The notes under the pieces are model-generated. The model did no database searches, had not been told where the DNA came from, and saw only the letters and a list, made by a program, of their open reading frames with translations. DNA of 64,000 nucleotides. It comes from an uncultured Maribacter sp. GTDB lineage: Bacteria > Bacteroidota > Bacteroidia > Flavobacteriales > Flavobacteriaceae. Location: assembly GCA_947498505.1 (NCBI GenBank), contig CANMKG010000006.1, positions 62,001 to 126,000 on the forward strand, written 5' to 3'. Below are positions 2,481 to 36,165 of the stretch, piece after piece. The stretch's first letter is position 1; every line of letters starts with the position of its first letter. The position numbers and the translations under genes were made by a program.

Positions 2481-2498
2481 ATAGACCATTGGGTCTAT
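2481..2498. promoter_or_regulatory. Dyad operator candidate upstream of tetR (ATAGACC..GGTCTAT)
   Basis: ATAGACCATTGGGTCTAT has perfect 7-base arms around a 4-base centre and sits 23 bases before the tetR start. The layout of two 8-base half sites and a 2-base centre is typical of TetR-family operators. From memory, a TAGACC-n4-GGTCTA box is known for NemR, so a NemR-like repressor is possible. Its half site (ATAGACCM) partly resembles the ACMAACYA half site of the dyads listed elsewhere in this window. Confidence 0.55.
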
Positions 2499-2608
2499 AA
2501 CAAAGAACCAGCGATTGCTAAAACTGGTGAACAATAAATGATAAACTGTGCATAAAAAACGGTCAACCGACAAAAATCGGGTGAACTACACTTTTTTTTC
2601 AAATAGTA

Positions 2609-2626
2609 ACAAACTAGGTGGTCGGT
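2609..2626. promoter_or_regulatory. TetR-type operator candidate, copy A
   Basis: ACAAACTAGGTGGTCGGT forms two imperfect inverted half sites (ACAAACTA and, on the other strand, ACCGACCA) around GG. It lies in the arsS-tetR gap, 78 bases past the arsS stop and 151 bases upstream of tetR. The same 18-bp layout recurs at 5080, 5206, 36022 and 36148. Its centre is 128 bp from the centre of the ATAGACC dyad. Confidence 0.5.
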
Positions 2627-2703
2627 TTATATGTTTAGTTTTTACGATTAAAAACAATCAAAAGTAAACTTAGGATTACTTTTTGAAATCTAAAAACCTA
2701 CTT

Positions 2704-3759
2704 TTACGCTACTGTCCCTTGACAACTGCTTCCCGCTCCAGCGGTACATCCGTAACAATGCTGAGATATAATTATGTTTCTATCATTCAATATATCTTCA
2801 TTGTAATCCTTTATATGTTTAACCTTACTAGCTACTTTTAAACCCAGCATTTGGTTAAAATCGCAATCATATAACCAACCATCCCAACTAATAGATATTG
2901 TGTTTGTACACATTACATTAGCAACAGCGGCCGGATTGTATGCTTCTACAAGTGCGTACATATAGTCTTCGTAATTTTCAGAAGCTATTAAGTAGTCTAA
3001 AAAACGGGATATTGGAAGGTTTGTTATTGCAAAAAGATTATGAAATTGGATATTAAAATCCTCTAGCAATGCTTTTTTAAAATCTTTTTCCATTGCCATT
3101 TGGTCCCCAGGTAAAAATGCACCGGAAGGATTGTAAACCAAGTCTAGACGCAAATCACTATCTGGCATACCATATCCAACAGCATTAAGCTCTTGTAGTG
3201 CTTTTATAGATTTATCAAAAACACCATCTCCGCGTTGCTTATCCGTTTTTCCTCTTGTATAATGTGGCATTGACGAAATTACGTGTACATTATGTTTTTT
3301 AAAGAAATCAGGCAAATCATAATATTTTTTGTTTGCACGTATAATGGTAAGATTAGATCTAACAATAAAGTCTTTAATACCTGCTTTAGAAGCTTCCTCA
3401 ACAAACCATCTGAAATTTGGATTCATTTCTGGAGCACCTCCGGTTAAATCTAAAGTATGAGCTCCTGTTGTTTTAATAATATCCAGGCACTGTTGCATGG
3501 TTTCTTTTGTCATGATTTCCTTTCTATCTGGACCAGCATCTACATGACAGTGTTCGCAAACCTGATTACACATGTAACCAACATTAATCTGCAAAATTTC
3601 AAGCTTTTTAGGACGAAGTGGAAAATGCCCTATCTCTGATATTTTATCTTTGAAATATGGCAACTCGCCGTCTGCAAAAATTCCTCCGTCAAGAATTTCT
3701 AACTGTTTATTAGTTTGCGCAAGCTCGTCTTGTCTTGCTTTTAATGATTTTGTCGCCAT
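2704..3759 (-). CDS. arsS: Arsenosugar biosynthesis radical SAM protein ArsS-like
   Basis: A 351-residue radical SAM enzyme. The 4Fe-4S cysteines are C64, C68 and C71 (GYMCNQVCEHCHVDAGPD), followed by a DLTGGAPEMNP block for SAM contact. The C-terminal tail HCYGCTAGAGSSCQG (C335, C338, C346) is the hallmark of the radical SAM/Cys-rich (earlier rSAM/selenodomain) family now called ArsS. That family is associated with transfer of the SAM 5'-deoxyadenosyl group to methylated arsenic for arsenosugar synthesis. Two upstream genes, an AhpD-like protein and a TIGR04282-type glycosyltransferase, are standard partners, which strengthens the call. This copy uses Cys throughout, with no in-frame TGA. 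No arsM is visible nearby. Confidence 0.88.
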   Translation of the reverse strand: MATKSLKARQDELAQTNKQLEILDGGIFADGELPYFKDKISEIGHFPLRPKKLEILQINVGYMCNQVCEHCHVDAGPDRKEIMTKETMQQCLDIIKTTGAHTLDLTGGAPEMNPNFRWFVEEASKAGIKDFIVRSNLTIIRANKKYYDLPDFFKKHNVHVISSMPHYTRGKTDKQRGDGVFDKSIKALQELNAVGYGMPDSDLRLDLVYNPSGAFLPGDQMAMEKDFKKALLEDFNIQFHNLFAITNLPISRFLDYLIASENYEDYMYALVEAYNPAAVANVMCTNTISISWDGWLYDCDFNQMLGLKVASKVKHIKDYNEDILNDRNIIISQHCYGCTAGAGSSCQGTVA

Positions 3760-3835
3760 TTTTTATTGTATTCTTTATTTAAATCTAGGGCATTGGATAA
3801 TGCAAAATCTTTGAAAAACGATATTTTCTTCCTGA

Positions 3836-4171
3836 TTACATGCTTAACTTATCATATTTGTTCATCATTTGAACACCGTGAACTAATGTAGCTCCACTTT
3901 CAATAGCCGCTCCTGCATGTACAGCTTCCATCATTTCCTCTTTAGTAATACCTTTTTGAAGGCCATCTTTAGTATAAGCATCTATGCAATAGGGGCATTT
4001 AACAACATGTGCTACAGCAAGAGCTATTAGTGATTTTTCCCTGGCACTTAGAGCGCCTTCTTCAAAGACTTTTCCGTAGTATTCAAAAAACTTGTTTCCA
4101 AGCTCTTCACTCCATTCTGTTATTTTTCCAAATTTTCTTAAATCGGCTGCGTCGTAATAGTTGTTTGCCAT
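3836..4171 (-). CDS. AhpD-like, arsenosugar-associated peroxidase-like protein
   Basis: A 111-residue carboxymuconolactone decarboxylase/AhpD-fold protein. The redox motif is CPYC at residues 59-62 with a histidine four residues before it (AHVVKCPYC), as in alkylhydroperoxidase AhpD. The short version encoded directly before the radical SAM/Cys-rich gene is known as the arsenosugar biosynthesis-associated peroxidase-like protein. It lies 76 bases upstream of arsS in the same direction, so co-transcription is likely. Its role is probably a thiol-disulphide step or protection of the pathway; the exact reaction is not established. Confidence 0.85.
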   Translation of the reverse strand: MANNYYDAADLRKFGKITEWSEELGNKFFEYYGKVFEEGALSAREKSLIALAVAHVVKCPYCIDAYTKDGLQKGITKEEMMEAVHAGAAIESGATLVHGVQMMNKYDKLSM

Positions 4172-4290
4172 TATCTTTATTTTAATAGTAGTTGATTAAT
4201 ATGTTTCACATAGGATTGAATTCTCAAATCCAAGTGTTATGATTTTGTTCAAAATTTTGAATATATACTAAGGTCTTAAGTAAGGAAGTT

Positions 4291-4980
4291 TTAGAATAAA
4301 GGAGACCCTTTATTAAAAGAAGAAGGTAAAAATGTTTTTTTAATACCAAAAAGTATATTCTGGAGCAATGTTTTAGCAAATAAGCGAAGGATTTCGACAA
4401 TTTCTAATCGTATACGATTAGAAATTTTTCGAAATAAATTCAGCATAAACCTTAAATCATCAATAGAATCTACATCTCTGAGCGTTTTTAATTTAAATGT
4501 TGATGAGGAATTTGCAACAAGCCATTCTGTAATTTCCGAAGTAATTTTTGATGTACACCAAGAAAAACCACTAAAAACATTGGCATTGAAATTGCATTTA
4601 TTGATGCCTAAAAGGTAAAATCCACCATCCGCAGATGGTCCTAAGACTGTTTTGTTGTCTTTTAATTTTTCAGATGCGTTTAAAATTTGAAATGATTCAA
4701 GTTGCGGTGTATCATTGCCAATTGTAATAACGTTTTCGTATCCTAAATCAAAAACATCTTGTATGGCATTTGTAAATTTTTCACCAAAAGAAAAACCACG
4801 CTGTTTAGTTTCCGAAAAGACATAATAGGGTAGCCCAGTTTTTTCAACTTTTCCAATAGTATCTTTTGAAAACTCTTCAAACAAAAAATTACTTTTTGGA
4901 ATAGATTTTTGCCTAGCATCTTCTTGTGCAGAATTTGCAAAAATTAAAACAGCCGTAGTATGTTTTTTCTTAGGAATCAA
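4291..4980 (-). CDS. TIGR04282-type arsenosugar biosynthesis glycosyltransferase (GT-A fold)
   Basis: A 229-residue protein of the DUF2064/TIGR04282 group (rSAM/selenodomain-associated transferase 1), recognised from VITIGNDTPQL and GPSADGGFYLLGI near the middle. These are GT-A-fold nucleotidyl/glycosyltransferases that accompany ArsS. Only TTG at 4980 gives a full-length N-terminus; no suitable ATG lies near it. It is first in the minus-strand run glycosyltransferase, AhpD-like, arsS. A dyad at 5080-5097 lies 100 bases upstream. The C-terminal 60 residues are basic and hydrophobic and look less conserved. The usual second transferase (TIGR04283) is not in the window. Confidence 0.82.
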   Translation of the reverse strand: MIPKKKHTTAVLIFANSAQEDARQKSIPKSNFLFEEFSKDTIGKVEKTGLPYYVFSETKQRGFSFGEKFTNAIQDVFDLGYENVITIGNDTPQLESFQILNASEKLKDNKTVLGPSADGGFYLLGINKCNFNANVFSGFSWCTSKITSEITEWLVANSSSTFKLKTLRDVDSIDDLRFMLNLFRKISNRIRLEIVEILRLFAKTLLQNILFGIKKTFLPSSFNKGSPLF

Positions 4981-5079
4981 AAAAAGTTTTTCTAAGGTAA
5001 ATTTACACTTTTTAAGTGCTAAGTTTTTTGTCGTGTAATTTTTAATCGAATTACAGATAAATTACTAAAAATAAGATTT

Positions 5080-5097
5080 ACCAACTAAGTGGTTTGT
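5080..5097. promoter_or_regulatory. TetR-type operator candidate, copy B
   Basis: ACCAACTAAGTGGTTTGT: half sites ACCAACTA and, on the other strand, ACAAACCA around a 2-base centre. It lies 100 bases upstream of the leftward glycosyltransferase start. Its centre is exactly 126 bp from that of copy C. Confidence 0.5.
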
Positions 5098-5205
5098 TAA
5101 CGCAGTTCAAAAAAGAGTTATTTTGATATGTAATAGCTATTAAAGGAACCAAAAAATGGTTGAAACGTAACACTGATTCACATTTTAAAAGAATAATAGA
5201 AAACT

Positions 5206-5223
5206 TAAAACTAACTAGTTTGT
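5206..5223. promoter_or_regulatory. TetR-type operator candidate, copy C (one weak half)
   Basis: TAAAACTAACTAGTTTGT reads ACAAACTAGTTAGTTTTA on the minus strand. One half site (ACAAACTA) is perfect and the other is degenerate. It ends 43 bases before the promoter element at 5266 of the patatin gene, a suitable place for an operator or activator site. Confidence 0.42.
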
Positions 5224-5265
5224 TAAATCAATTAAAATTTTAACCTGCTTTTGAGTTAATCCCTA

Positions 5266-5273
5266 TAAATTTG
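5266..5273 (+). promoter_or_regulatory. -7 promoter element TAAATTTG of the patatin gene
   Basis: TAAATTTG fits TAnnTTTG. Transcription would start near 5280, which rules against the in-frame TTG at 5278 as start codon and favours the ATG at 5308. Confidence 0.5.
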
Positions 5274-5307
5274 AAGTTTGCAGCAGGCAAATAAAAACGT
5301 TGTTATT

Positions 5308-6093
5308 ATGAATTTAGAAACACTTCAAGCAAAGAAAATAGGGTTAATATTATCTGGAGGAGGTGTTCGTGGAATGGCTCATATTGGCTTAATCAAAGCC
5401 TTAAAGGAGTTTAATCTTAGTGCGGACGTGGTTGCTGGATCAAGTGTTGGAGCTTTGGTGGCTGGGTTGTATGCTAACGGAAAATCTACTGACGAGATGC
5501 TTCATTTTTTTGAGGACACACCGCTTTTTAAATATAGTTTTTTTACGATTAATAAGGCCGGATTTTTAGATACTGTAAAATATATAGAGCTTTTTAAGAC
5601 ATATTTTCCTGATAATACTTTTGAAGCCTTACAGAAGAAACTTTTTGTTGTAGCTACTAATCTGGAGTTAGGAGAAGAAAAAATGTTTTCTAGCGGCGAG
5701 CTTATAAGACCTTTATTAGCTTCTGCGGCTTTACCTCCAGTATTTAGTCCTGTAGAAATAGGGGGATTTTTATATGCGGATGGAGGAATTATGAATAATT
5801 TTCCGAAAGAGTATGTGGACCCATTTGTAAATTTTACTATTGGTAGTAATGTTTCTATCGCGGGAGAGATTGGAAAAAAGGATGTAAAAAACCCAATACA
5901 AATGGCTGCGCGTGTAACCGGCCTAATGATATACGCTTCTAGTAAAAAGAAGGTTCAGGAATGCGATTTAGCAATTTCACCTAAAGCACTGGAGAGTATT
6001 GGTCTTTTGGATAAAAAGGGTATTAAAAAAGCTTATGAAATTGGTTATTCCGAGACTATGAAAAGTTTAGAAAACCTTTTTAAACTAAGCTAA
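5308..6093 (+). CDS. Patatin-like phospholipase family protein
   Basis: A 261-residue RssA/YchK-type patatin. The oxyanion loop GGGVRG (17-22), nucleophile motif GSSVG with Ser46, and catalytic Asp158 in DGG (YADGGIMNNFP) are all present, so it should be an active Ser-Asp dyad acyl hydrolase. There is no signal peptide, so action in the cytoplasm or at the inner membrane is likely. The ATG at 5308 is chosen over the TTG at 5278 because of the promoter position. The stop overlaps the convergent reductase gene by a few bases. Two dyads upstream suggest repressor control. Confidence 0.9.
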   Translation: MNLETLQAKKIGLILSGGGVRGMAHIGLIKALKEFNLSADVVAGSSVGALVAGLYANGKSTDEMLHFFEDTPLFKYSFFTINKAGFLDTVKYIELFKTYFPDNTFEALQKKLFVVATNLELGEEKMFSSGELIRPLLASAALPPVFSPVEIGGFLYADGGIMNNFPKEYVDPFVNFTIGSNVSIAGEIGKKDVKNPIQMAARVTGLMIYASSKKKVQECDLAISPKALESIGLLDKKGIKKAYEIGYSETMKSLENLFKLS

Positions 6094-7139
6094 ACATCAT
6101 CAAAATCTATTTTTAAAGTTGGTGTTGTTGCATGTGCTTGACAAGCTAGTATATATCCATCTTCAATTTCTCCATCAGTTAAAATCTGGTTTTTCACCAT
6201 TTCTACTTTTCCCTCAGTTACCTTGGCTATACAACTGCTACAAACACCTCCTTGACAAGAATACGGAGCATCAATATCTTCTTTAATAAGAGCATCTAAT
6301 ACTATAGTGGATTTGTCTATTTCCAATGAAAACTCTTCATCATCAACAGTTACAGTTAATTGTGTAGTACCATCGGCAGATACAGGCAATTCATCTTTAA
6401 TTTCAGTTGAGGTAAAAAGTTCAAAATGAATTTTATCTTTTGAAATTTCGTTTTCAGCTAAGGTAGCTTCAACATTACGAATCATAGCCTCAGGACCACA
6501 TAAATAAAAGGCATCAAAGTCAATATCTTTATGCTTGTTTTTCAACACATAGTTTACTGTAGAAGTGTCTATCCTGCCAAATAACGAATTATCTTCACGA
6601 GTTTGACTATTTGTAAAATACACAAAAAACCTATTGGTATATTCAAGCTCTAGTTTAACTAAATCGGTGTAAAACATAGCCTCTTTGAGAGATTTATTAC
6701 CGTAAACCAAAACAAAAGTGTTTTTAGTATTTGCAGATAAAACGCTTTTAGCAATGCTTAAAATTGGAGTAATACCACTTCCGGCTGCAAAAGCAACTAT
6801 GTTTTCTGGCTTGTTGGCTGTTGCATACGTAAACCTTCCTTCTGGAGGCATAACTTCTAAAACGTCTCCTACTGCAATTTTGCTATTTGCGTAATCGGAA
6901 AAACCTTCTTTACCTACTTTTTTTACTCCAATAGTAAATGATTCAGCGTTAGGGGTAGAGCTTATTGAATATGCTCTTCTAAATTCTTTGCCTTTAACTT
7001 CCTTTTTAATTGTGATATACTGCCCTGGAAGAAAAGTAAAAGTTTCTGATAATTCTGAAGGAATAAAAAAAGTTATAGCGACAGAACTGGGAGTTAATTG
7101 ACTTACGTGCTTTACCGCTAGTGGATGAAAATTGGCCAT
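6090..7139 (-). CDS. PaaE-like ferredoxin-dependent oxidoreductase (FAD/NAD(P)H/2Fe-2S)
   Basis: A 349-residue electron transfer protein with three domains: FAD-binding (residues about 5-105, with RAYSISSTP), NAD(P)-binding (about 110-235, with AAGSGITPILSI and YLCGPEAM) and a C-terminal plant-type 2Fe-2S ferredoxin domain with C295, C300, C303 and C333. This order matches the phenylacetyl-CoA epoxidase reductase PaaE and related flavohaem-type reductases. No paaABC genes are present here, so the partner oxygenase or desaturase is unknown. It stands alone, converging with the patatin gene. Confidence 0.88.
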   Translation of the reverse strand: MANFHPLAVKHVSQLTPSSVAITFFIPSELSETFTFLPGQYITIKKEVKGKEFRRAYSISSTPNAESFTIGVKKVGKEGFSDYANSKIAVGDVLEVMPPEGRFTYATANKPENIVAFAAGSGITPILSIAKSVLSANTKNTFVLVYGNKSLKEAMFYTDLVKLELEYTNRFFVYFTNSQTREDNSLFGRIDTSTVNYVLKNKHKDIDFDAFYLCGPEAMIRNVEATLAENEISKDKIHFELFTSTEIKDELPVSADGTTQLTVTVDDEEFSLEIDKSTIVLDALIKEDIDAPYSCQGGVCSSCIAKVTEGKVEMVKNQILTDGEIEDGYILACQAHATTPTLKIDFDDV

Positions 7140-7214
7140 AGTATTATATTAAGTCTCTAAAAAAGAGAGTGCAAAATTACATAAAGCTGGCATTGTACTA
7201 AAGAAGATTACAAA

Positions 7215-7262
7215 AAATATATACCTAAGTTTTTTATGTATAAGAAAATTATGTATATATTT
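7215..7262. promoter_or_regulatory. Inverted repeat overlapping the padR promoter (candidate autoregulatory operator)
   Basis: AAATATATAC at 7215-7224 and its exact reverse complement GTATATATTT at 7253-7262 are 28 bases apart. The right arm overlaps the TATATTTG promoter element at 7256-7263. PadR regulators commonly bind AT-rich dyads over their own promoter. The AT-rich composition makes chance matches easier. Confidence 0.4.
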
Positions 7263-7263
7263 G
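7256..7263 (+). promoter_or_regulatory. -7 promoter element TATATTTG of the padR operon
   Basis: TATATTTG fits TAnnTTTG and lies 13 bases before the ATG at 7277, implying a very short leader of about 5-10 bases. Confidence 0.5.
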
Positions 7264-7276
7264 AGTTGATAGAAGT

Positions 7277-7621: not shown

Positions 7622-7632
7622 AATTAGTATTC

Positions 7633-7728
7633 ATGAAATTAACCAAAGAACAATTGAGAACTATTGAAAGTCATTTGAATTACCGAGAGCTAAGTCATAT
7701 GAATGTAAAACGTGGTCAATTCCTATGA
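7633..7728 (+). CDS. 31-residue stub related to the next gene (truncated paralogue)
   Basis: This short frame encodes MKLTKEQLRTIESHLNYREL and eleven more residues, then TGA at 7726-7728. Its start and register match the N-terminus of the following protein (MKLTKQDILNIDKYLRQKGI, later YMDVRYEL against HMNVKRGQF). The TGA overlaps the ATG of the next gene as ATGA, a layout that permits translational coupling. Most likely it is what remains of an upstream duplicate after an internal deletion. It could now serve as a leader frame. It is also possible that it is not translated. Confidence 0.5.
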   Translation: MKLTKEQLRTIESHLNYRELSHMNVKRGQFL

Positions 7729-8812: not shown

Positions 8813-8813
8813 A

Positions 8814-9602: not shown

Positions 9603-9950
9603 ATGAAAGATTTTATGATGATTTTTATTGGAGCAGACTATCAAGAGTTAGGCTTGTCTCCCGAACAATTACAAGAGCGTATGGGAAAATGGTTTGCCTG
9701 GAATGATAAAATGGAGGGGCAAGGTATTCTTAAAGGAGGAAATGCTTTAGTGCCTGTGGTAAAACATGTTTCTGGGCCAAACAGAACAATTACTGATGGC
9801 TCTTTAGTTGAAGGTAAAGAACTGGTTGGAGGCTATTATATTGTTTCAGCTGAAAATGCAGATGCAGTAGTTGAAATTGCTCAAGATTATCCAGATTATG
9901 ATTTGGGAGGAACCGTTGAAATACGTGAAGTAATGGTATTTGACAAATAA
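9603..9950 (+). CDS. YCII-related (DGPF) protein, partner of the ECF42-type sigma factor
   Basis: A 115-residue YCII/DGPF-domain protein. Diagnostic blocks are the start (DFMMIFIGADY), TDGSLVEGKELVGGYYIV and VEIREVM at the end. In many bacteria DGPF proteins are encoded with group ECF42 sigma factors, and the next gene here is such a factor with a TAATG overlap. The family resembles YciI; an enzymatic role is not established for this branch. A distant homologue lies at 49364-49711 without a sigma partner. Confidence 0.88.
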   Translation: MKDFMMIFIGADYQELGLSPEQLQERMGKWFAWNDKMEGQGILKGGNALVPVVKHVSGPNRTITDGSLVEGKELVGGYYIVSAENADAVVEIAQDYPDYDLGGTVEIREVMVFDK

Positions 9951-11191
9951 TGGAAAATAAAATTGTCGACCATCTTTTCAGACATCAATACGGAAAGATG
10001 GTCGCTATTTTGGTTCGTTTTTTTGGATTTTCCAATATCGAAACTATTGAAGATGCCGTTCAAGATACTTTTGTAAAAGCTACATTGCAATGGCGAAACG
10101 AAATTCCTAAAAACCCAGAGGCATGGCTAGTAAAAGTTGCCAAAAACAGAACCATTGATTTGCTTAGAAGCATTAAGGCAGAAAAAAATCGCTTTAATAA
10201 AATATCTTCTGGAGCAAGTGCAATAGTAATAAATGAACTATTTCTAGACCACGAAATTGAAGATAGTCAGTTACGAATGATATTTGTTGCCTGTCACCCC
10301 AGTTTAAAACCTAAAGAACAAATAGCCTTTGCTTTAAAAACTATTTCAGGTTTTAGTCTTAAAGAAATTTCCGCTGCACTACTCACTAAAGAAGAAACTA
10401 TTCAAAAAAGATTAAGTAGGGCAAAAAAAACAATAATTAAAAAAGATATTCAGTTTGATTATCCACCTGCTGTAGATATTGAAAAAAGGTTAGATAGGGT
10501 AATGGAAGTGTTATACTTGACCTTTAATGAAGGTTTCCACTCTACCAATAAAACAAAATTAATTAGAGAAGATTTGTGTGGTGAGGCAATTCGTTTGGTA
10601 AAGCTGCTATTAAAAAAAGAGAAATTTAGGAATGGCAAATTGTATGCATTATTTGCTTTAATGTGTTTTCATTCTTCACGCTTAAGCAGTAAAATCAATA
10701 ATAAAAATGAAATAGTAACCATTAACGAGCAGGATAGAAGTAAATGGTATTTTCCTTTGATTAAAATAGGGAATGATGCTATGAATAAAACTATGGAGTA
10801 TGATGATATTTCTTGTTATCATTATGAAGCAGCAATTGCAGTAGAGCATCTAAAAGCCAAAACTTTTGAAAAGACCAATTGGAATAAAATATTACGATGG
10901 TATAACAAATTATATGAATTGCAACCAGCGGTATTTACCTATTTAAATATTGCTATCGTGAATTTACAGCTAAATAAGCTTGAGGTTGTAAAAGAAATGC
11001 TAGATACCATTGTGGTATCTGACTTAGAACAGCGAGCATATTTGTATTATGGATGTTATGCTGATTATTTTTTTAAAAGAAAAGAGATCAAAAAGGCAAT
11101 TTCCTACCTAGATAAAGCCATTCAAAACACCTCTAATAATTTAGAAAAAGAATATCTTAAAAAAAGGAAATTACAGTTAGAAATTATTTAA
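9950..11191 (+). CDS. ECF42-type RNA polymerase sigma factor with C-terminal extension
   Basis: A 413-residue protein, much longer than ordinary ECF factors. Residues about 1-70 hold sigma region 2 (YGKMVAILVRFFGF, DAVQDTFVKATLQW), about 105-155 hold region 4 (GFSLKEISAALLTKEETIQKRLSRAKKTI), and the rest is the long helical, TPR-like extension (DUF6596 type, with VLYLTFNEGFHSTN). Group ECF42 uses this extension in place of an anti-sigma factor. Translation is coupled to the DGPF gene through the 1-base overlap at 9950. Target promoters are unknown; self-regulation of the DGPF operon is likely from the family. Confidence 0.9.
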   Translation: MENKIVDHLFRHQYGKMVAILVRFFGFSNIETIEDAVQDTFVKATLQWRNEIPKNPEAWLVKVAKNRTIDLLRSIKAEKNRFNKISSGASAIVINELFLDHEIEDSQLRMIFVACHPSLKPKEQIAFALKTISGFSLKEISAALLTKEETIQKRLSRAKKTIIKKDIQFDYPPAVDIEKRLDRVMEVLYLTFNEGFHSTNKTKLIREDLCGEAIRLVKLLLKKEKFRNGKLYALFALMCFHSSRLSSKINNKNEIVTINEQDRSKWYFPLIKIGNDAMNKTMEYDDISCYHYEAAIAVEHLKAKTFEKTNWNKILRWYNKLYELQPAVFTYLNIAIVNLQLNKLEVVKEMLDTIVVSDLEQRAYLYYGCYADYFFKRKEIKKAISYLDKAIQNTSNNLEKEYLKKRKLQLEII

Positions 11192-11257
11192 ACTTTAAAT
11201 TAGGTGTAACAATTTCCGAAATTTAGATACTAACCTTTCGCAGAAATTTACCAACCT

Positions 11258-12727
11258 ATGTTTAAATATTTTATAAACCTTCAATGGAAGTCTTTTTTTA
11301 GATCCGCAAATTTGAGCAAAGGGTTAGCCTTAAAAATCGTTATGATTTTTTTTGCTATCTACATGCTAGTCTCTTTTACTTTTTTGGGAATCGGCCTTTT
11401 TTTTATGTTAGAAAAGTTCTTCCCTGACGCTGACCCAATGGTAATTTTGAGTCAGTATCTTGTATATTGGATTATCATAGAGCTTTTAGCCAGGTATTTC
11501 ATGCAAAAATTACCGGTGATGGATGTAAAACCTATGTTATTACTTCCTGTTAAAAAAAGTACAATAACACATTACATTTTAGGCAAATCAGGTTTTTCAT
11601 TTTTTAATTTGCTGTCCATGGTAATTTTTATACCATTTGGTATGGTGCTTATTGCTCACGACTATCCAGTGGCAAATGTTTTAATTTGGTTACTTTCAAT
11701 ACTAGGTATTGTAATGTCTATTAATTACATAAATTTTATAATTAATAAGAGCGATAAAATATTCTTTGGCTTACTTCTTACGCTTCTTGGTATATACGGT
11801 TTGGAGTATTTTAATATTTTTTCGGTTACTGAGTATTTGGGTCAAATGTTTTATTCATTATATGCTAATCCAGTTTTAACTGTTGTACCAATTGTTCTAG
11901 CAGTAATAACGTATTTTCTGAATTATAAGTTTTTAAGGAGTAGAATTTTTTTAGATGCATCCTTAAAGAAGGAAGTAAAAACAGTAGAAGCATCAGATTT
12001 ATCATGGACCAAACGCTTTGGATCAATTGCTCCTTTTCTTCAATTAGACTTAAAACTTATTTGGAGAAATAAAAGAACAAAAACTCAAGTGTTTATGTCA
12101 CTTGCAATGATATTTTATGGCCTCATTTTTTACAAGATGGATGATTTTGGACCAACCTCACCCATGATGGTTTTTGTCGGAATTTTTATTACAGGAATTT
12201 TTCTAACCAATTTTGGGCAATTTATACCAGCCTGGGATAGTGCATATTATAGCATGATGATGTCACAAAATATTCCACTAAAAAAGTATTTAGAATCTAA
12301 GTCGGGTTTAATCTCAGTAAGTGTTGTTGTAATGTTTTTATTGTCAGTGCCATATGTATATTTTGGTTGGCAAGCATTAGCAATTAATTTTAGTTGCGCA
12401 TTGTATAATCTTGGAGTAAATGTTCCGCTAATTTTGTTTTTTGGGTCATTTAATAAAAAACGAATAGACTTAGATAAAAGCGCTTTTGGAAATATGCAAG
12501 GAGCTGGTGCTGCACAGTTTTTAATTATGCTGCCCATAATTGTTCTGCCTTTATTGCTCTACGTTGGATTTAAGTATTTAGTCTCGTTTGAGGTGGCGCT
12601 TATGGTAATAGGTGGGGTAGGCATTATAACTTTTGCCTTTAGAAATATGCTTTTAAATTATGTTACTAAAGCATATCGAAAAAAGAAATATGGAATGATA
12701 TCAGGATTTAAAGAAACAAATAGCTAA
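11258..12727 (+). CDS. DUF5687 family ABC exporter membrane protein
   Basis: A 489-residue integral membrane protein with about ten to twelve predicted helices. It is followed four bases later by an ABC ATPase gene, so it is the permease of a two-gene ABC exporter. The N-terminal block (NLQWKSFFRSANLSKGLALK) is typical of the DUF5687 family of Bacteroidota. The central soluble loop with KLIWRNKRTK between helices resembles the coupling region of ABC-2 type permeases. Substrate unknown. Confidence 0.85.
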   Translation: MFKYFINLQWKSFFRSANLSKGLALKIVMIFFAIYMLVSFTFLGIGLFFMLEKFFPDADPMVILSQYLVYWIIIELLARYFMQKLPVMDVKPMLLLPVKKSTITHYILGKSGFSFFNLLSMVIFIPFGMVLIAHDYPVANVLIWLLSILGIVMSINYINFIINKSDKIFFGLLLTLLGIYGLEYFNIFSVTEYLGQMFYSLYANPVLTVVPIVLAVITYFLNYKFLRSRIFLDASLKKEVKTVEASDLSWTKRFGSIAPFLQLDLKLIWRNKRTKTQVFMSLAMIFYGLIFYKMDDFGPTSPMMVFVGIFITGIFLTNFGQFIPAWDSAYYSMMMSQNIPLKKYLESKSGLISVSVVVMFLLSVPYVYFGWQALAINFSCALYNLGVNVPLILFFGSFNKKRIDLDKSAFGNMQGAGAAQFLIMLPIIVLPLLLYVGFKYLVSFEVALMVIGGVGIITFAFRNMLLNYVTKAYRKKKYGMISGFKETNS

Positions 12728-12731
12728 AAGT

Positions 12732-13427
12732 ATGATAGTTGCAAAAAATTTAACCAAACAATATGGTGGCAAACAAGTTTTAAATATTGAAAACTTAGAA
12801 ATTCCAAAGGGACAAAGTTTTGGGCTTGTTGGTAATAATGGAGCAGGAAAAACAACATTTTTTAGTCTACTTTTAGATTTAATTGAACCCTCAGCAGGAG
12901 AAATTATAAATAATAATGTTCAAGTAAATACAAGTGAAGACTGGAAACCCTTTACATCATCATTTATAGATGAAACATTTTTAATAGGGTATTTAACACC
13001 AGAAGAATATTTTAATTTCATTGGAGAATTACGCGGACAAAACAAGGCAGATGTTAATGCATTGCTTTCAAGGTTTGAAGATTTTTTTCATGGAGAAATT
13101 TTAGGGCAAAATAAATATCTGAGAGACTTGTCCAAAGGAAATCAAAAAAAAGTGGGAATTGTAGCCTCATTCATTGGCAATCCAGAAGTAGTGATTTTAG
13201 ATGAACCTTTTGCTAATTTGGACCCTACCACTCAAATAAGATTAAAAGGGATAATAAAAGACTTAGCGAATACACAAGGAGTAACCGTTTTGGTATCAAG
13301 TCATGATCTTATTCATGTTACAGAAGTATGCGAACGCATTGTTGTTTTAAACAAAGGAGAAATTGTTAGAGACATTGAAACTTCAACAGAAACACTTCAA
13401 GAGCTAGAAAGTTTTTTCGCTGGTTAA
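12732..13427 (+). CDS. ABC transporter ATP-binding protein
   Basis: A 231-residue nucleotide-binding subunit. Walker A is GNNGAGKT (residues 34-41), the signature is LSKGNQKKVGI (about 137), Walker B is VVILDEPF (about 155) and the H-loop is SSHD (about 195). The signature has K rather than Q after LS, as in many ABC-2 exporters. It pairs with the DUF5687 permease directly upstream. A hairpin terminator follows. Confidence 0.93.
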   Translation: MIVAKNLTKQYGGKQVLNIENLEIPKGQSFGLVGNNGAGKTTFFSLLLDLIEPSAGEIINNNVQVNTSEDWKPFTSSFIDETFLIGYLTPEEYFNFIGELRGQNKADVNALLSRFEDFFHGEILGQNKYLRDLSKGNQKKVGIVASFIGNPEVVILDEPFANLDPTTQIRLKGIIKDLANTQGVTVLVSSHDLIHVTEVCERIVVLNKGEIVRDIETSTETLQELESFFAG

Positions 13428-30613: not shown

Positions 30614-31852
30614 ATGAAAAGTTCTAGATTGCATATAACTAATACTAAAGGCGTTAAACTACACGCGTATTTAGAACTTCCAGCAAATCAAAGACCTAAT
30701 TATTATGCCATATTTGCACACTGTTTTTCCTGTTCTAGCACGTTAAGTGCCGTGAAAAATATAAGTAGGTCTTTAACTAATCATGGTTTTGGAGTAGTGC
30801 GGTTTGATTTTACTGGTTTAGGAAGAAGTGAAGGAGAATTTGCGGACAGTCATTTTTCTGCCAATGTGGAAGATGTAATCGCAGTTAATAACTTTATTAC
30901 CTCCGAATATGAAGCTCCAAGTTTACTAGTTGGTCATTCACTAGGCGGAGCGGCAGCCATTGTTGCTGCTTCTAGGTTGGATAATATTAAAGCTGTGGCA
31001 ACTATTGGAGCCCCTGCAACTGTTAATCATGTTACGCACTTATTTTCTCATGCCATAGATGAAATTAAAGATAAAGGAGAGGTTAGTGTAAATATAGGAG
31101 GTAGATCTTTTAAGATTAACAAAGAGTTTGTAAGTGATTTTGAAAAGACGGACTTGCCAGAAATCACTAAAAATTTGCGAAAACCAATTCTAATAATGCA
31201 TGCTCCGTTTGATATTGTTGTAGGTATAGAAAATGCGCAAAAATTATATCATAACGCCCATCATCCTAAAAGTTTTGTAAGTCTAGATGATGCAGACCAT
31301 TTACTTTCTAAATCTAAAGACAGTAAATATGCAGGAAACATTATTGGCGCTTGGGTGGGGCGCTATTTTGAACCTATTGAAAATACGATGCTTTCTACAG
31401 GGGGAGAGCAGCTTGTTGCACGTTTAAGTTTATTGGAAGATAACTTTACCACAAGCATGCAAACTAAAAACCATGCATTTATAGCGGATGAACCTGTAAG
31501 TTTTGGAGGTGATGATTTTGGACCGTCACCTTACGATTTTTTAAGCGCTTCTTTAGCTTCTTGTACGGTTATGACCTTAAAATTATACGCAGAACGTAAA
31601 AAATGGGATTTACAAGAAGTGTTTGTATACATTACATATGCTAAAAAGCATAGTGATGATTTAGGTCTAGATTTAGATAAGTCAATACGTTTAGATGTAT
31701 TAGATAAAAAGTTAAAGTTTGTTGGAAATTTAGATGATACTCAGATAAATAGGCTTAAAGAAATAGCAAGTAAATGCCCTGTTCATAAAACCTTGTTGAG
31801 TGATATTAAAATTAATACTGAGGTTATTGGTGACAAACAAACTACACATTAA
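30614..31852 (+). CDS. Bifunctional alpha/beta hydrolase - OsmC fusion
   Basis: A 412-residue two-domain protein. Residues about 1-255 are an alpha/beta hydrolase with GHSLGG (Ser near 116) and a terminal His in DDADHLLS. Residues about 275-405 are an OsmC/Ohr domain with the paired cysteines in [19 protein letters not shown] and [10 protein letters not shown], expected to reduce organic hydroperoxides. The fusion is known in many bacteria; linked hydrolysis and peroxide reduction of the same esters is a reasonable but unproven idea. Confidence 0.92.
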
Positions 31853-31859
31853 AAAACGT

Positions 31860-31948
31860 CATTTCGAGTGTTTTATCGTAATAAAATAAAGACGAAATGT
31901 ATTGAGAAAAGTTTTTAATTCTATAACCCTATTTTCTTGATACATTTT
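31860..31948. repeat. REP-like palindromic element
   Basis: CATTTCG (31860-31866) pairs with CGAAATG (31893-31899), enclosing a second stem TTTTAT/ATAAAA (31871-31876 and 31881-31886). Downstream, GAAATGTATTGAGAAAAG is matched in inverted orientation by CTTGATACATTTTTC near 31936-31950. The words resemble interspersed intergenic palindromes I associate with Flavobacteriaceae genomes. No other copy was seen in this window. Confidence 0.5.
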
Positions 31949-31997
31949 TCCTAAAGTTACAAATTTCGCAAAGCTTCACTTCGCAGAGTAGTTACTA

Positions 31998-32555
31998 CTA
32001 CCAGTTAGCTGTATATTTTTTATTTTTTTTTGGCAACTGTTTTTTAATATAAATGGCGGTAAAATTTTCATCTTCTCTCTTAACAAAAAGAGAATCACCA
32101 TTAACACCTATAGTGGCACTGTATATACCCCTTTTAAGGTTTTCACTTACTATTGTAAAAATTGCAAGCTTGTTTTCACCCCCATTACTATAGCACACCC
32201 CTCTATTTCCACTATTTTCAGGGTTTAATTGTGGTATCTTATCAGATAATACGTCACTCTTTTTTAAAAAAAATAGATTCACGCATCCATTCTCATAAAA
32301 TTTTAAAACATTCAAGTATGCCCGATCTTTGTTATCAAAATTGCTTTTTAATACTTCATAATGATCTCTATAGTAACCTCCCACGTAAATCGAATTATAA
32401 TCTACTCCCTCAATAAGTTTAACAGTAGCATTTTTTCGATAGTTTTTGTTAAAAAAATTATCGTCTAGAGGTATTTTGGTACTTCCATCTAATAACACTT
32501 TAGTTTCCATTGATCCGCATGACACAAACAACAACAAAAAAAGAAACCTTACCAT
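31998..32555 (-). CDS. Hypothetical lipoprotein, tandem copy 2
   Basis: A 185-residue lipoprotein: MVRFLFLLLFVSCGSMETK gives a very short signal with lipobox FVSC, Cys at residue 13. The rest has blocks shared with its tandem neighbour: GVDYNSIYVGGYYRDH, RFYENGCVN-like (KFYENGCVNLFF), NGGRGVCY-like (NSGNRGVCY) and a C-terminal KKYTANW. No family is recognised. The lineage-specific pair probably sits in the outer or inner membrane facing the periplasm. Confidence 0.72.
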   Translation of the reverse strand: MVRFLFLLLFVSCGSMETKVLLDGSTKIPLDDNFFNKNYRKNATVKLIEGVDYNSIYVGGYYRDHYEVLKSNFDNKDRAYLNVLKFYENGCVNLFFLKKSDVLSDKIPQLNPENSGNRGVCYSNGGENKLAIFTIVSENLKRGIYSATIGVNGDSLFVKREDENFTAIYIKKQLPKKNKKYTANW

Positions 32556-32620
32556 AATGTAAATTTATTTTTAGTTTGATACTGAAAATAGGGTTCTATT
32601 ACCTCTAAATAGGGTTAGAG
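32551..32620. repeat. 70-base direct repeat, copy 1 (upstream region of lipoprotein copy 2)
   Basis: Identical to 33171-33240 apart from one base (32606 T, 33226 A). It covers the first codon and the upstream region of both lipoprotein genes, offset 620 bases. It contains two AACCCTATTT words in minus orientation, possibly part of the promoter. Confidence 0.85.
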
Positions 32621-32632
32621 GAGTGGTTACTA

Positions 32633-33175
32633 CTACCAATTAGCAGTATATTCTTGATTTTTTTTAGACAATGGTTTTTTTATTAAAACGCGATTATAAT
32701 TTGAACCTTTTTTTAGTAGAAATAGAGTATCTCCTTTAAGCTTGATTTCAGGGTTATAAATACCTATCTTATAGTATTCCCCGGTGATGGTTACCATAGC
32801 CATCATATATCTATTGTCTAGAAAATAACAGATGCCTCTACCTCCTGTTATATCAGGATTTAAATCTATCTGATCAGATTCCAGACCTTTATAAATGTCA
32901 AATTGATTTACACAGCCATTTTCGTAAAATCGAATTCCCGTTTCAACAAAATAATCTTTTATACTTATCATTTTACCCTTATGATTAATATAATATTCTT
33001 CCATATAAATAGCATTATAATCTATACCAGCAATATTCTTAATTTTATATTTTTCTCGATAATTCGTATCAAAAAAGTCTTTTTCAGCAGGAACATCTGT
33101 TACTCCATCTTTTAACTCTATGGTTTTTAAAGATCCGCATGACAAAAACAGCAGTAAAAAAAGTAATCTTACCAT
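32633..33175 (-). CDS. Hypothetical lipoprotein, tandem copy 1
   Basis: A 180-residue lipoprotein with signal MVRLLFLLLFLSCGS (lipobox FLSC, Cys13). It is a tandem paralogue of the gene at 31998: shared segments are GIDYNAIYMEEYYINH, RFYENGCVNQFD, TGGRGICY and the C-terminal KKNQEYTANW. The protein sequences have diverged clearly while the upstream 70 bases remain nearly identical. Function unknown. Confidence 0.72.
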   Translation of the reverse strand: MVRLLFLLLFLSCGSLKTIELKDGVTDVPAEKDFFDTNYREKYKIKNIAGIDYNAIYMEEYYINHKGKMISIKDYFVETGIRFYENGCVNQFDIYKGLESDQIDLNPDITGGRGICYFLDNRYMMAMVTITGEYYKIGIYNPEIKLKGDTLFLLKKGSNYNRVLIKKPLSKKNQEYTANW

Positions 33176-33240
33176 AATGTAAATTTATTTTTAGTTTGAT
33201 ACTGAAAATAGGGTTCTATTACCTCAAAATAGGGTTAGAG
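33171..33240. repeat. 70-base direct repeat, copy 2 (upstream region of lipoprotein copy 1)
   Basis: Second copy of the repeat at 32551-32620, 69 of 70 bases identical, including the ATG and upstream region. Marks the unit of a tandem gene duplication of about 620 bases. Confidence 0.85.
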
Positions 33241-33273
33241 CATATATTTACGTTTCAATAACATGAATAAACC

Positions 33274-33789
33274 CTATTCCCCCATAAAAAGTGCACGTAG
33301 TTCGGTAGCCTCTTTGGGTTTAAGTTTTCCTGCTAACACAAGACTTAATTGTTTTCTTCTTAAAGCGGCCTCAAATCGTTGACTTTCAAGTTTTGTTTCT
33401 GGCACTAACTCTGGCACTTTAGTTGGTTTTCCAGTATCATCAACAGCTACAAAAGTGTAAATAGCTTCGTTCGCTTTTGTACGTTCACCACTGAAACGAT
33501 CTTCCATCCAAACATCTAAATAAACTTCCATTGAAGTATTAAATGCTCTGGAAACTACAGCTTCAACAGTAACTACACTACCAACAGGAACAGCTTGATT
33601 AAATGCAACGTGATTAACAGATGCGGTAACCGTAATTCTTCTGCTATGTCTACGAGCGGCAATACTGGCAGCACGATCCATACGAGCTAAAAGCTCGCCA
33701 CCAAATAAATTATTTAATGGATTAGTTTCACTAGGTAAAACCATATCTGTCATTACGGTACGAGAATCACTGGGAGTTTTGCTAGACAT
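33274..33789 (-). CDS. Acyl-CoA thioesterase (hotdog fold, YciA type)
   Basis: A 171-residue single hotdog-domain thioesterase. The motif NPLNNLFGGELLARMDRAASIAARRH contains the helix with the catalytic Asp (about residue 38), and SVNHVAFNQAVPVGSVV forms the central strand. The C-terminal 30 residues are an Arg-Leu-rich tail. It should hydrolyse acyl-CoA to the free acid and CoA in the cytosol. Monocistronic. Confidence 0.9.
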   Translation of the reverse strand: MSSKTPSDSRTVMTDMVLPSETNPLNNLFGGELLARMDRAASIAARRHSRRITVTASVNHVAFNQAVPVGSVVTVEAVVSRAFNTSMEVYLDVWMEDRFSGERTKANEAIYTFVAVDDTGKPTKVPELVPETKLESQRFEAALRRKQLSLVLAGKLKPKEATELRALFMGE

Positions 33790-33844
33790 ACTTTTTCTTT
33801 CTGCAAAGATACGTTCAATTTAAAAGAAAATAGAGTGAGTAGTC

Positions 33845-34804
33845 TTATTTTAAAGAAAGTAACCAAGCATCTTTAGATTGTACTCGTTTAATTTTTCTTA
33901 GGGCAGATAAGGCTTGGTCAACATCTTCATAGCGATCGTAGGTTACCATGTGTAAACCATGCTTATTAGTTCCAATATAATCAGCATGATAACCAAGACG
34001 CTTAAGTTGCCTAATTTTGCGGTCTGCATTTTTTTTGAACCTAAAAGCACCAGCAACAATGTGGTGAAGTGATTGATTTTCTTTTTTGTTTGCCTTCGTA
34101 ATTACATCTAAATTAATAGTTGGTAATTCCATGGGAACAGCATCAAAAAAGGTCGCTTTTTGAATATATTTAGAAACCTCTTCTTGTGCTTCTTGTTGCA
34201 CAAGTTGATTTTTCTCTTTGTTATTTTCGTAAAATTTGAATCCTGTAAGTCCTGTCGATAGTGCTAATAATGCTATAGCGGCATACTTATAGTAAAATCT
34301 GAAAGACGATTCTTTTCTCTTTTCAGGAGTTATGATAAAAGGAATTCTTTCTTCAAGTACTTCAACTTCCTCTTTTAAGACTTCTCTAGTAACAGGGGTT
34401 GATGAAAAAGTTGTAAGCCCAAAAGATGAGGTCAAATAATTTTCATTATCAAATGGTTCAAACTGAATTTTTTCTTCAACACTTAAGCTTAAAACACCAA
34501 TGTCTTCTAGATTTAACTTCTCTCCTTTGAGTAAATTATCCTTCCATGTTTTGGCAACATTTTCGACCTCAATTAACGTTTTTTCGTAGGGAACTTTTTT
34601 AAGCTCAGCGATATACGAAATTAACAATCCGTCATTAGAAGATAATTGCTCGTTAAATGAAATTAATTTAGATGGGGCATAAAAGGTATTGCTATCTTCT
34701 TGAAGTCTAGCAGATTGCTTTTGAGCCAAAAAAGCACCAAAGCCTGGTATAACTACACAATTATACCTGTATAATAAATCTTTTATATAGTGTTCTAAAA
34801 CCAT
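33845..34804 (-). CDS. HU-CCDC81 / SPOR domain membrane protein
   Basis: A 319-residue protein with an N-terminal HU-like (HU-CCDC81) region (about 1-130, with LEHYIKDLLYRYNCVVIPGFGAFL), one transmembrane helix near 170-190 (YAAIALLALSTGLTGF) and a C-terminal SPOR domain (about 240-319, HHIVAGAFRFKKNADRKI), which binds denuded peptidoglycan. The ATG at 34804 is chosen over an upstream TTG at 34813. The N-terminal part would face the cytoplasm. Such proteins probably act in cell division or envelope-DNA linkage; function not established. Confidence 0.88.
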   Translation of the reverse strand: MVLEHYIKDLLYRYNCVVIPGFGAFLAQKQSARLQEDSNTFYAPSKLISFNEQLSSNDGLLISYIAELKKVPYEKTLIEVENVAKTWKDNLLKGEKLNLEDIGVLSLSVEEKIQFEPFDNENYLTSSFGLTTFSSTPVTREVLKEEVEVLEERIPFIITPEKRKESSFRFYYKYAAIALLALSTGLTGFKFYENNKEKNQLVQQEAQEEVSKYIQKATFFDAVPMELPTINLDVITKANKKENQSLHHIVAGAFRFKKNADRKIRQLKRLGYHADYIGTNKHGLHMVTYDRYEDVDQALSALRKIKRVQSKDAWLLSLK

Positions 34805-34910
34805 AGTACACAAAGATTGTAAAAAAAGAGGGCTCTAAAAACTCTTCAGGTAACTTTTTATTAACATTATATTTTTACTAATTTGTGAATAAATACTAAC
34901 TAAATTATAA

Positions 34911-36014
34911 ATGACTACAAGTGAATTAATTGCAACATTACGTTTGCAACATATTCCAAATATTGGAGATGTTACAGCTAAAAAATTAATTTCACATTGC
35001 GGAAGCCCATCAGCCGTTTTTGAAGATAAAATACAACACCTTTTAAAAATAGATGGTATTGGAACCCATACTTTAAAAGGAATTTATGATGGTGAGCATA
35101 TTGAAGCCGCTCAAAAGGAACATGAGTATATTACAACAAATGATGTTTCTTATACTTATTTTTTGGATGATGATTATCCAAATTTGCTAAAACATTGTAT
35201 AGATGGCCCTATCTTGATTTTTAAAAAAGGAAATATAAACCTTGAAAATCAAAGGATAATTAGTGTGGTTGGTACACGAAATATAACCAGCTATGGAACT
35301 GATTTTTGTGAACAATTTATTGCAGATATTGCTCCATTAAACCCAATTATCGTTAGTGGTTTTGCTTATGGGGTGGACATTTGTATTCAACGTGCAGCAA
35401 TTAAATATAACTTGCAGACTATTGGTTGTTTAGCACATGGATTAAATCAAATTTACCCTAAAACACATGCTAAATATGTTAAGGATGTGGAGAAAAATGG
35501 GGGTTTTATAACAGATTTCTGGAGTAATAGTAATCCAGACCGAAATAATTTTTTAAAACGAAATAGAATTATTGCAGGGATGTCTGAGGCTACCGTAGTT
35601 ATAGAGTCAGCAGAAAAGGGAGGTAGTTTGGTTACTGCCGATATTGCGCATAGCTATAACAGAGATATTTTTGCAGTCCCTGGAAGAGCAAGAGATAAGT
35701 ACAGCCTCGGATGCAATAACTTAATAAAACAACAAAAAGCACAAATGCTTACTTCTGCAGCGGATTTAATCTATACACTAGGTTGGAATATTGAAGAAAA
35801 GCATTCAAAAAACGTACAAGCAGAGTTATTTGTGAATTTAACTGATGAAGAACAATTAATATATAGTCTATTACAAAGTAATGGAAAGCAATTATTAGAT
35901 AGTATTGCATTAACATGTAAACTACCAATATTTAAAACTTCGTCAACGCTTTTAAATATGGAAATGAAAGGTGTTGTTAGACCATTACCTGGAAAATTAT
36001 TTGAAGCTATTTAA
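34911..36014 (+). CDS. dprA: DNA-processing protein DprA
   Basis: A 367-residue protein with an N-terminal helix-hairpin-helix/SAM-like region (about 1-70), the Rossmann-type DprA core (about 80-290, with VVGTRNITSYG, SGFAYGVDI, GGSLVTADIA and AVPGRA) and a C-terminal winged-helix domain (about 305-367). It loads RecA onto incoming single-stranded DNA during natural transformation. recA lies 4.6 kb away. No other competence genes are in the window. Confidence 0.94.
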   Translation: MTTSELIATLRLQHIPNIGDVTAKKLISHCGSPSAVFEDKIQHLLKIDGIGTHTLKGIYDGEHIEAAQKEHEYITTNDVSYTYFLDDDYPNLLKHCIDGPILIFKKGNINLENQRIISVVGTRNITSYGTDFCEQFIADIAPLNPIIVSGFAYGVDICIQRAAIKYNLQTIGCLAHGLNQIYPKTHAKYVKDVEKNGGFITDFWSNSNPDRNNFLKRNRIIAGMSEATVVIESAEKGGSLVTADIAHSYNRDIFAVPGRARDKYSLGCNNLIKQQKAQMLTSAADLIYTLGWNIEEKHSKNVQAELFVNLTDEEQLIYSLLQSNGKQLLDSIALTCKLPIFKTSSTLLNMEMKGVVRPLPGKLFEAI

Positions 36015-36021
36015 AAATTAT

Positions 36022-36039
36022 ACAAACTAATTGGTTTGT
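36022..36039. promoter_or_regulatory. TetR-type operator candidate, copy D
   Basis: ACAAACTAATTGGTTTGT: half sites ACAAACTA and, on the other strand, ACAAACCA; 7 of 8 positions are symmetrical, the best dyad of the set. It lies 7 bases after the dprA stop. Confidence 0.5.
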
Positions 36040-36147
36040 TCGTAATATTATAGCGTTATAAATAATTATTAATAGTGCATTTCGTCGATAATTTATAGAG
36101 CAAAATCTACACTGAAAGCGTTTATACTTAAAAATGTACTTTTAGCT

Positions 36148-36165
36148 ACAAACTAGGTAGTTGGT
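36148..36165. promoter_or_regulatory. TetR-type operator candidate, copy E
   Basis: ACAAACTAGGTAGTTGGT: half sites ACAAACTA and, on the other strand, ACCAACTA; 7 of 8 positions symmetrical. It shares its first ten bases with copy A. Lies 33 bases from the 3' end of trpS. Confidence 0.5.

Follow-up and report, generated by a model that had tools for sequence, protein, structure and literature searches.

In the literature examined, the site-specific proteins that organise or mark one region of a bacterial chromosome come from E. coli (MaoP, MatP and SlmA) and Bacillus (RefZ and Noc). MaoP and MatP are site-specific, acting through maoS and matS, and each organises one chromosome region (PMC5023128, PMC5441646); MatP serves the Ter domain, while MaoP has a single maoS site and is not called TetR-like in its abstract (PMC5023128). 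SlmA is a TetR-family protein whose chromosomal sites (SBSs) act as a spatial landmark (PMC6657595) and occur throughout the chromosome outside the terminus. RefZ, also of the TetR family, acts in Bacillus sporulation; its five sites (RBMs) hold conserved positions relative to the origin, two per arm and one near oriC, and the account consulted mentions neither a paired architecture nor a middle motif. ParB likewise has palindromic sites, parS, near the origin.

The window, a 64,000-nucleotide stretch of DNA from an uncultured Maribacter sp., carries a TetR-family gene and three elements, each built of two dyads (Table 1). We suggest, with a probability of about 0.6, that such elements are putative binding elements of this TetR-family protein around the chromosome origin of marine Maribacter-like bacteria, and that they are landmarks of the origin region. 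They would be best explained as working like RefZ and its RBMs, with which they share a TetR-family protein (1841-2458) and conserved site positions relative to the origin, here gauged by parS and GC skew, but as a twelve-turn, two-operator element with the site of another protein inside. RefZ is not named among the 60 PDB matches listed, of 82, for the protein. No description of the element was found in the open-licence PMC literature searched.

Table 1. Features of the window, with positions counted from its first base
Feature	Positions	Strand	Remarks
TetR-family protein (205 aa) that probably binds the dyads	1841..2458	-	Pfam domains, orthologues, upstream pair
Element 1, dyad pair 128 bp apart, upstream of the TetR gene	2481..2626	-	place and spacing kept in relatives
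Gene-proximal dyad ATAGACCATTGGGTCTAT of element 1	2481..2498	.	matrix score 15.7
Conserved TTCTTTG string adjoining the gene-proximal dyad	2501..2507	-	promoter-like by our reading
Direct repeat at offset 36, first of some three within element 1	2576..2590	-	weak here, 1.9 bits
Distal dyad ACAAACTAGGTGGTCGGT of element 1	2609..2626	.	exact pattern match
Element 2, dyad pair 126 bp apart, between divergent DUF2064 and patatin genes	5080..5223	-	
Dyad ACCAACTAAGTGGTTTGT of element 2	5080..5097	.	exact pattern match
Degenerate core TACGTTTCAACCATT, offset 54, of element 2	5155..5169	-	weak, 4.0 bits; reversed interior 5.1
Dyad TAAAACTAACTAGTTTGT of element 2	5206..5223	.	pattern match with 2 mismatches
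Element 3, dyad pair 126 bp apart, between converging dprA and trpS ends	36022..36165	+	
Dyad ACAAACTAATTGGTTTGT of element 3	36022..36039	.	exact pattern match
Core TGCATTTCGTCGATA, offset 54, of element 3	36076..36090	+	
Dyad ACAAACTAGGTAGTTGGT of element 3	36148..36165	.	exact pattern match

A first-pass annotation of the window had listed six dyads, all intergenic and arranged in pairs. All six are present where it placed them and all fall between called genes, with start-to-start spacings of 128 (2481/2609), 126 (5080/5206) and 126 bp (36022/36148). Allowing 2 mismatches, the pattern finds 5 sites (10 strand hits) in the window against 0.99 +/- 1.32 expected, and none of 100 shuffles reached 10 strand hits. 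The dyads at 2609, 5080, 36022 and 36148 match the pattern exactly on the + strand. That at 2481 (ATAGACCA-TT-GGGTCTAT) is missed at 2 mismatches and scores 15.7 bits with a matrix trained on 16 sites of its own genome, itself included. No known RNA was matched in the window at Rfam gathering scores.

The observation is confirmed, and is larger than first described. Eight dyad pairs were found in the genome of origin; they lie on contig C6 and at the beginning of contig C3. In the genome-wide scan that the annotation had proposed as a check, every pair found measures 126-128 bp and lies at C6:64-166 kb or C3:17-85 kb; the other contigs were scanned at up to 2 mismatches only, with about 100 of 109 matches listed, and among these 7 of the 8 pairs show both of their sites. 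Taken singly, hits at 2 mismatches do not exceed the reversed control genome-wide (53/56 vs 49/55). At 1 mismatch this genome has 12 sites against 3 in the control, an excess made up of strong sites, and such sites outnumber the control in all 8 genomes examined of the genus. In regions from eleven genomes, with spacing left free up to 1 kb, 50 of the 52 distances of at most 1 kb between strong sites (n=127) are 124-129 bp. These regions were picked mostly where dyads, TetR or LytTR genes had already been seen, which biases per-base counts and affects the spacing result less. The full element spans about 145 bp with its dyads about 127 bp, or about 12 helical turns, apart; the earlier proposal of two sites some twelve turns from one another is supported.

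The annotation had named the TetR protein at 1841-2458 as the simplest candidate for a single dimeric regulator, and comparison with relatives favours this choice. The protein carries Pfam domains TetR_N (2.7e-14) and TetR_C_13 (3.3e-08), and orthologues of at least 40% identity occur in 30 of 199 genomes of the family, its own included. A survey of the best 80 of 182 TetR loci, mostly closely related, with spacing left free between 100 and 159 bp, found a dyad pair upstream of the TetR gene in 78 of 80; 72 of these 78 pairs measure 124-129 bp, and in 71 of 78 a dyad ends 19-23 bp before the start codon. One of the two loci without a pair (L259) has just 99 bp of upstream sequence. A TetR_N domain, and a conserved dyad ahead of the gene that encodes it, are also what an autoregulated TetR regulator would present. 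Sites with 0 mismatches occur in 21 of 30 genomes with an orthologue and 24 of 169 without (Fisher p 1e-9, a statistic that ignores kinship). The reversed pattern at 0 mismatches matches 15 of 199 genomes, so some dyads in the 24 TetR-less genomes may be chance matches or sites of other TetR proteins. At 6 of 30 TetR loci (L207, L209, L215, L221, L222 and L223) no pair was detected; at L209 a single dyad with 0 mismatches lies upstream at a distance of about 150 bp, and in L221 and L223 the recognition helix of the TetR protein is altered. Since the pair precedes its gene at nearly all of the surveyed loci and site presence tracks the gene, the TetR protein probably binds the dyads.

Between the dyads, a middle motif (TGYATTTCRTCGAWA) lies at a fixed offset. 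The first-pass annotation overlooked it: its statement that the interiors are not alike holds for the rest of their length, where no common sequence was found, and fails for this 15-bp core at offset 54. In the window the first pair has a variant with three repeats, the second a weak degenerate form, and the third the core at 36076-36090. Elements from eight genomes of four genera were compared with 26 TetR-upstream elements. A core of at least 10 bits stands at offset 53-55 in 20 of 43 non-TetR elements, 8 of which had trained the core matrix; of the 43 reversed interiors, 1 has such a core, whatever the offset. With orientation set by the best core, it peaks at offsets 36, 55 and 76 in the 26 TetR-upstream elements and at 54, with a weak peak at 75, in the 43 others. 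The sequences show both the fixed spacing and, in roughly half the non-TetR elements, a core at a fixed offset. The other 23 of 43 have no core of at least 10 bits at offset 53-55, so a third partner may be mistaken or limited to some elements. Genome-wide, at up to 2 mismatches, the core does not exceed the reversed control (66/77 vs 86/85).

The core may be of LytTR type. One variant (AACCGTTCGTCGATA) contains the AlgR site CCGTTCGTC, but most copies are unlike that site. The repeats of the TetR-upstream elements lie about 20 bp apart, and LytTR-type regulators are described as binding imperfect direct repeats at a distance of about 12 bp (PMC4064291). One LytTR protein of 244 aa (C6:199750 in the genome of origin) is 80-90% identical across six genera and encoded about 177-266 kb from parS; with 13-20 LytTR matches in each of six genomes, it is a lead only as binder of the core.

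The sites gather at distances of up to about 200 kb from parS; in a complete genome (G039, 3.87 Mb) this is near the GC-skew origin. In G039, 13 of 16 sites at up to 1 mismatch fall within 205 kb, an interval set by the sites themselves; parS (1,586,658 and 1,588,564) lies inside the cluster, and the skew turns nearby, around 1.66 Mb. Skew was read from 40 stretches, each of 20 kb, and gives a mixed picture elsewhere. A terminus domain was suggested by the place of dnaA in this genome, 1.7 Mb from parS, and was rejected when parS and skew pointed to the origin. No DnaA-box clusters stood out by which to locate oriC, and position relative to the origin was gauged by parS and skew instead. In the genome of origin, parS is also on C6 (C6:20132-22514), on both sides of a gene that we take to be mnmG. 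parS was sought in 16 genomes, two of which (G197 and G111) gave no exact or near match; TetR and parS are 38-70 kb apart in 10 of the 11 genomes with both on one contig and 245 kb apart in the eleventh. The parS motif differs from the dyad, and was found separately in the same region.

The signal is thinner in other complete or near-complete genomes than in G039: sites at up to 1 mismatch number 8 against 5 in the reversed control (G063), 4 against 1 (G087), 3 against 1 (G197) and 10 against 4 (G178). Six of the 8 sites group together in G063, 2 of 4 are near parS in G087, and 7 of 10 lie within about 190 kb of parS in G178. The places of the elements have at least one flanking gene in common across genera; inheritance within a syntenic region explains part of the clustering, so the genomes are not independent. 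Clustering near parS and the skew minimum, positions common to genera and co-occurrence with the TetR gene are evident in the sequences. A spread like that of the SBSs of SlmA was not found, given the cluster in G039 and, in the genome of origin, pairs on C6 and C3 only (among about 100 of 109 matches listed).

The first-pass annotation had read the pairs as controlling the arsenosugar cluster and the promoter of patatin. An ordinary TetR regulon, in which the protein represses its own gene and these neighbours through looped operators twelve turns apart, is an unlikely account of the main function. It agrees with the position of the TetR-upstream element just before the start codon and beside TTCTTTG, with element 2 upstream of both the DUF2064-CMD-arsS run and patatin, and with the finding of arsS no more than 5 kb from TetR in 52 of the 70 loci with full flanks (from the best 80 of 182). 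In the other 18 of 70 arsS was not found within that distance, and at least 17 of these keep the pair, since L315 alone among full-flank loci lacks it. The third pair of the window lies between the converging dprA and trpS, and of 58 pairs 23 lie in converging, 25 in tandem and 8 in divergent gaps; converging placement is enriched over gaps of at least 140 bp (68 of 339; p 7e-5). This count used spacings of 123-130 bp and genes from our own crude ORF caller, yielded no pair in the G087 regions at its threshold, and, beyond the elements used for the core and TTCTTTG counts, takes in those of G063 and G178. TTCTTTG, a string picked after viewing the alignment, occurs in 20 of 26 TetR-upstream elements and in none of the 43 others. 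A flavobacterial promoter consensus occurs in neither group (0 of 43 and 0 of 26) and does not discriminate between them; TTCTTTG alone separates the two. The flanking genes, as read, have no common pathway, and a regulon leaves the restriction to a small part of the chromosome unexplained. A promoter-only reading is weakened by the converging placement and by the absence of TTCTTTG outside the TetR-upstream elements. With element 1 placed at the promoter of TetR and element 2 between divergent genes, both may have a regulatory role, and the divergent and tandem placements mean that some other pairs could regulate as well.

Converging gaps and proximity to the origin would also suit a regional element that acts as a roadblock or insulator, guarding the origin's neighbourhood from read-through or head-on conflicts, or a part of replication control; elements in converging gaps span from stop to stop, mostly with about 5-70 bp to spare on each side. 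We think this improbable, since the tandem and divergent placements are left over and core orientation is mixed within the domain, a poor fit to a polar fork trap; a polar replication trap was ruled against on that ground. Palindromic ends recurring at a fixed distance recall a MITE- or REPIN-like mobile element, but no homologous interior was found, nothing being common apart from the core, the flanking genes are common across genera and the pair tracks a TetR gene, making this very improbable. Chance dyads in AT-rich DNA would explain why single hits at 2 mismatches stay at control level; the 1-mismatch excess throughout the genus, the nearly quantised distances and the TetR-upstream pairs refute that explanation, to which we give hardly any credence.

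Returning to the origin-region landmark, each dyad would be occupied by one TetR dimer, and a bending protein on the core, perhaps a LytTR response regulator, would help two dimers to meet, closing a 127-bp loop. The resulting beads would bridge to one another or to a partner in the envelope or in the machinery of division or segregation, and the bridged beads would organise or position the origin region; the TetR-upstream copy would additionally hold TetR levels constant. In its full form the proposal is tentative, at somewhat under even odds: the TetR protein and a LytTR regulator would build twelve-turn looped beads at about 8 inherited positions over about 250 kb around parS, organising the origin independently of transcription as a macrodomain or segregation landmark of Bacteroidota. 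The architecture is unusual: two operators at a fixed distance of twelve turns, with a third site between them. Conserved, computable sites in the origin region, together with a candidate protein that can be named, would provide Bacteroidota with a system for organising or marking one chromosome region that is open to test.

The window corresponds to C6:62001-126000. All six 18-bp dyads (ACMAACYA-n2-TRGTYKGT) placed in it by the first-pass annotation were found at their positions; the pattern is exact at four, carries two mismatches at window position 5206, and has a divergent member at 2481. The window contains 10 strand hits versus about 1 in shuffled sequence. The pairing proposed there also holds, with spacings of 128, 126 and 126 bp, and the suggested scan of the whole genome (4.08 Mb, 37 contigs) yielded eight pairs, termed elements here, at 126-128 bp on contigs C6 and C3; among the matches listed by this pattern scan, no such pair was found on other contigs. 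A dyad matrix gave 12 hits of at least 15.7 bits in 226 kb of C6, every one a pair member, and six weaker hits (12.2-15.3 bits), none in a pair.

Dyad pairs in the Maribacter genome (contig positions)
Contig	First dyad	Second dyad	Remark
C6	64481	64609	
C6	67080	67206	
C6	98022	98148	
C6	128670	128797	
C6	143405	143532	
C6	165444	165571	
C3	17840	17967	
C3	84174	84301	alternative 84297, spacing 123

Eight genomes of the genus have 8-17 sites with at most one mismatch, versus 0-5 in the reversed control. Regions taken from eleven genomes of seven genera (1.62 Mb) contained 58 pairs, distributed over ten genomes and six genera; G087 had no pair at the threshold used. The 127 strong sites give 52 distances that do not exceed 1 kb; 50 of these fall in the range 124-129 bp and the remaining two are 207 and 961. 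Across genera, element places have at least one flanking gene in common: the TetR-family gene with arsS, patatin, dprA, ogt, a rimK/desuccinylase pair, or genes for a DUF1460 or a GNAT protein (the last four named by ORF reading; names outside the window do not come from family searches). Elsewhere in the window (9950-13427), a gene for a DUF6596-domain sigma factor is followed by genes for a DUF5687 protein and for the ATPase of an ABC transporter.

The first-pass annotation held the pair interiors to be unlike each other, overlooking a 15-bp core that emerges when the eight elements are aligned. This core, TGYATTTCRTCGAWA, occurs with 0-2 mismatches in six of them, 54-55 bp from one end and in either orientation; the element at C6 67080 has a weak degenerate core and that at 64481 a variant. 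With elements oriented by the best core of each, the mean core profile of 43 elements not upstream of TetR genes (eight genomes, four genera) has its maximum at offset 54 and a weak secondary one at 75, and that of 26 TetR-upstream elements peaks at 36, 55 and 76, forming direct repeats about 20 bp apart. At offset 53-55, 20 of these 43 elements have a core of at least 10 bits (the matrix was trained on 8 of the 20); reversed interiors have one, at any offset, in 1/43. Measured between centres, the intervals of about 52, 75 and 127 bp would each approximate an integral number of helical turns. A likeness of the core to LytTR-type sites is seen when a variant in G039, AACCGTTCGTCGATA, is compared with the AlgR consensus, CCGTTCGTC (excerpt of PMC4064291). 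Tandem core copies 19-23 bp apart at C3:357610/357629, C7:168251/168274, C2:131302/131322 and C1:473288/473307, with a dyad pair seen at none, are possibly ordinary LytTR sites. A 244-aa LytTR protein at C6:199750 (L026; counterparts L224, L225, L226, L228 and L231; 80-90% identity, six genera), encoded about 177-266 kb from parS, is a candidate binder of the core.

The dyads cluster most distinctly in G039, a single contig of 3,868,304 bp, where 16 sites have no more than one mismatch and 13 of them fall within 1.433-1.638 Mb; parS lies at 1.587 Mb, and GC skew (40 stretches sampled), mostly negative before about 1.66 Mb, becomes positive there. Its dnaA (C1:3288590) is 1.7 Mb from parS (C1:1586658) and the skew turn, nearly the maximal distance on a 3.87-Mb chromosome. 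Clustering is less distinct in the other four genomes scanned: 6/8 sites lie together, 70-170 kb from parS, in G063, 7/10 in G178 at no more than about 190 kb from parS, 2/4 near parS in G087, and 2/3 near the TetR gene in G197, where a search for parS found none. Both parS and the TetR gene were located in 13 genomes, on separate contigs in G033 and G082 and on one contig in 11; their distance is 245 kb in G142 and 38-70 kb in the other 10. In the Maribacter genome itself parS flanks, on both sides, a gene read as mnmG; judging by orthology with G039 position 1637926, the C3 elements should fall beyond parS, on its other side.

The TetR protein (window 1841-2458, minus strand) probably binds the dyads; the evidence is good though indirect: dyads and orthologues co-occur, pairs lie upstream of its gene, and orthologues with an altered helix have neither the pair nor a zero-mismatch dyad. 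The best 80 of its 182 relatives are mostly from Maribacter, Zobellia and neighbouring Flavobacteriaceae, and orthologues (at least 40% identity; next match 35%) occur in 30/199 family genomes, this one counted. Zero-mismatch dyads are found in 21/30 genomes with an orthologue versus 24/169 without (counts uncorrected for relatedness); the reversed pattern matches in 15/199. The pair is present at 24/30 TetR loci and, in a second collection, upstream of the gene in 78/80 (72/78 at spacing 124-129). Two orthologues, L221 and L223 in G093 and G182, provide a natural test of specificity: the recognition helix is altered, the upstream pair is absent, and the genome has no zero-mismatch dyad.

A plain TetR regulon is disfavoured by the placement of the elements. 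Of the 58 pairs, 23 lie in convergent, 25 in tandem and 8 in divergent gaps, against 68, 172 and 99 among the 339 gaps of 140 bp or longer that this DNA contains; the other two pairs are at an edge and within a called gene (convergent placement, Fisher p 7e-5, related elements counted as independent). It is disfavoured also by TTCTTTG, a string picked from the alignment, which accompanies 20/26 TetR-upstream elements versus 0/43 others; the flavobacterial promoter consensus was absent from both sets. The link to the arsenosugar cluster drawn in the first-pass annotation is common, not constant: of the 70 loci whose flanks are complete, 52 have arsS no more than 5 kb from TetR.

Searches of open-licence PMC papers gave no description of this architecture, of such a system in this taxon, or of the pairing with a LytTR-like site. 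In its working the system would come closest to RefZ, which also belongs to the TetR family and whose RBM sites keep conserved places relative to oriC in Bacillus (excerpt of PMC6657595); the comparison is one of likeness, with no claim that the Maribacter system belongs with RefZ. On the reading we favour, TetR dimers would occupy two dyads twelve turns apart and, assisted in many copies by a bending protein at the core, would assemble into compact looped complexes at some eight positions surrounding the origin. Such a system would be of an already known kind, that of a site-specific protein that marks a chromosome region.
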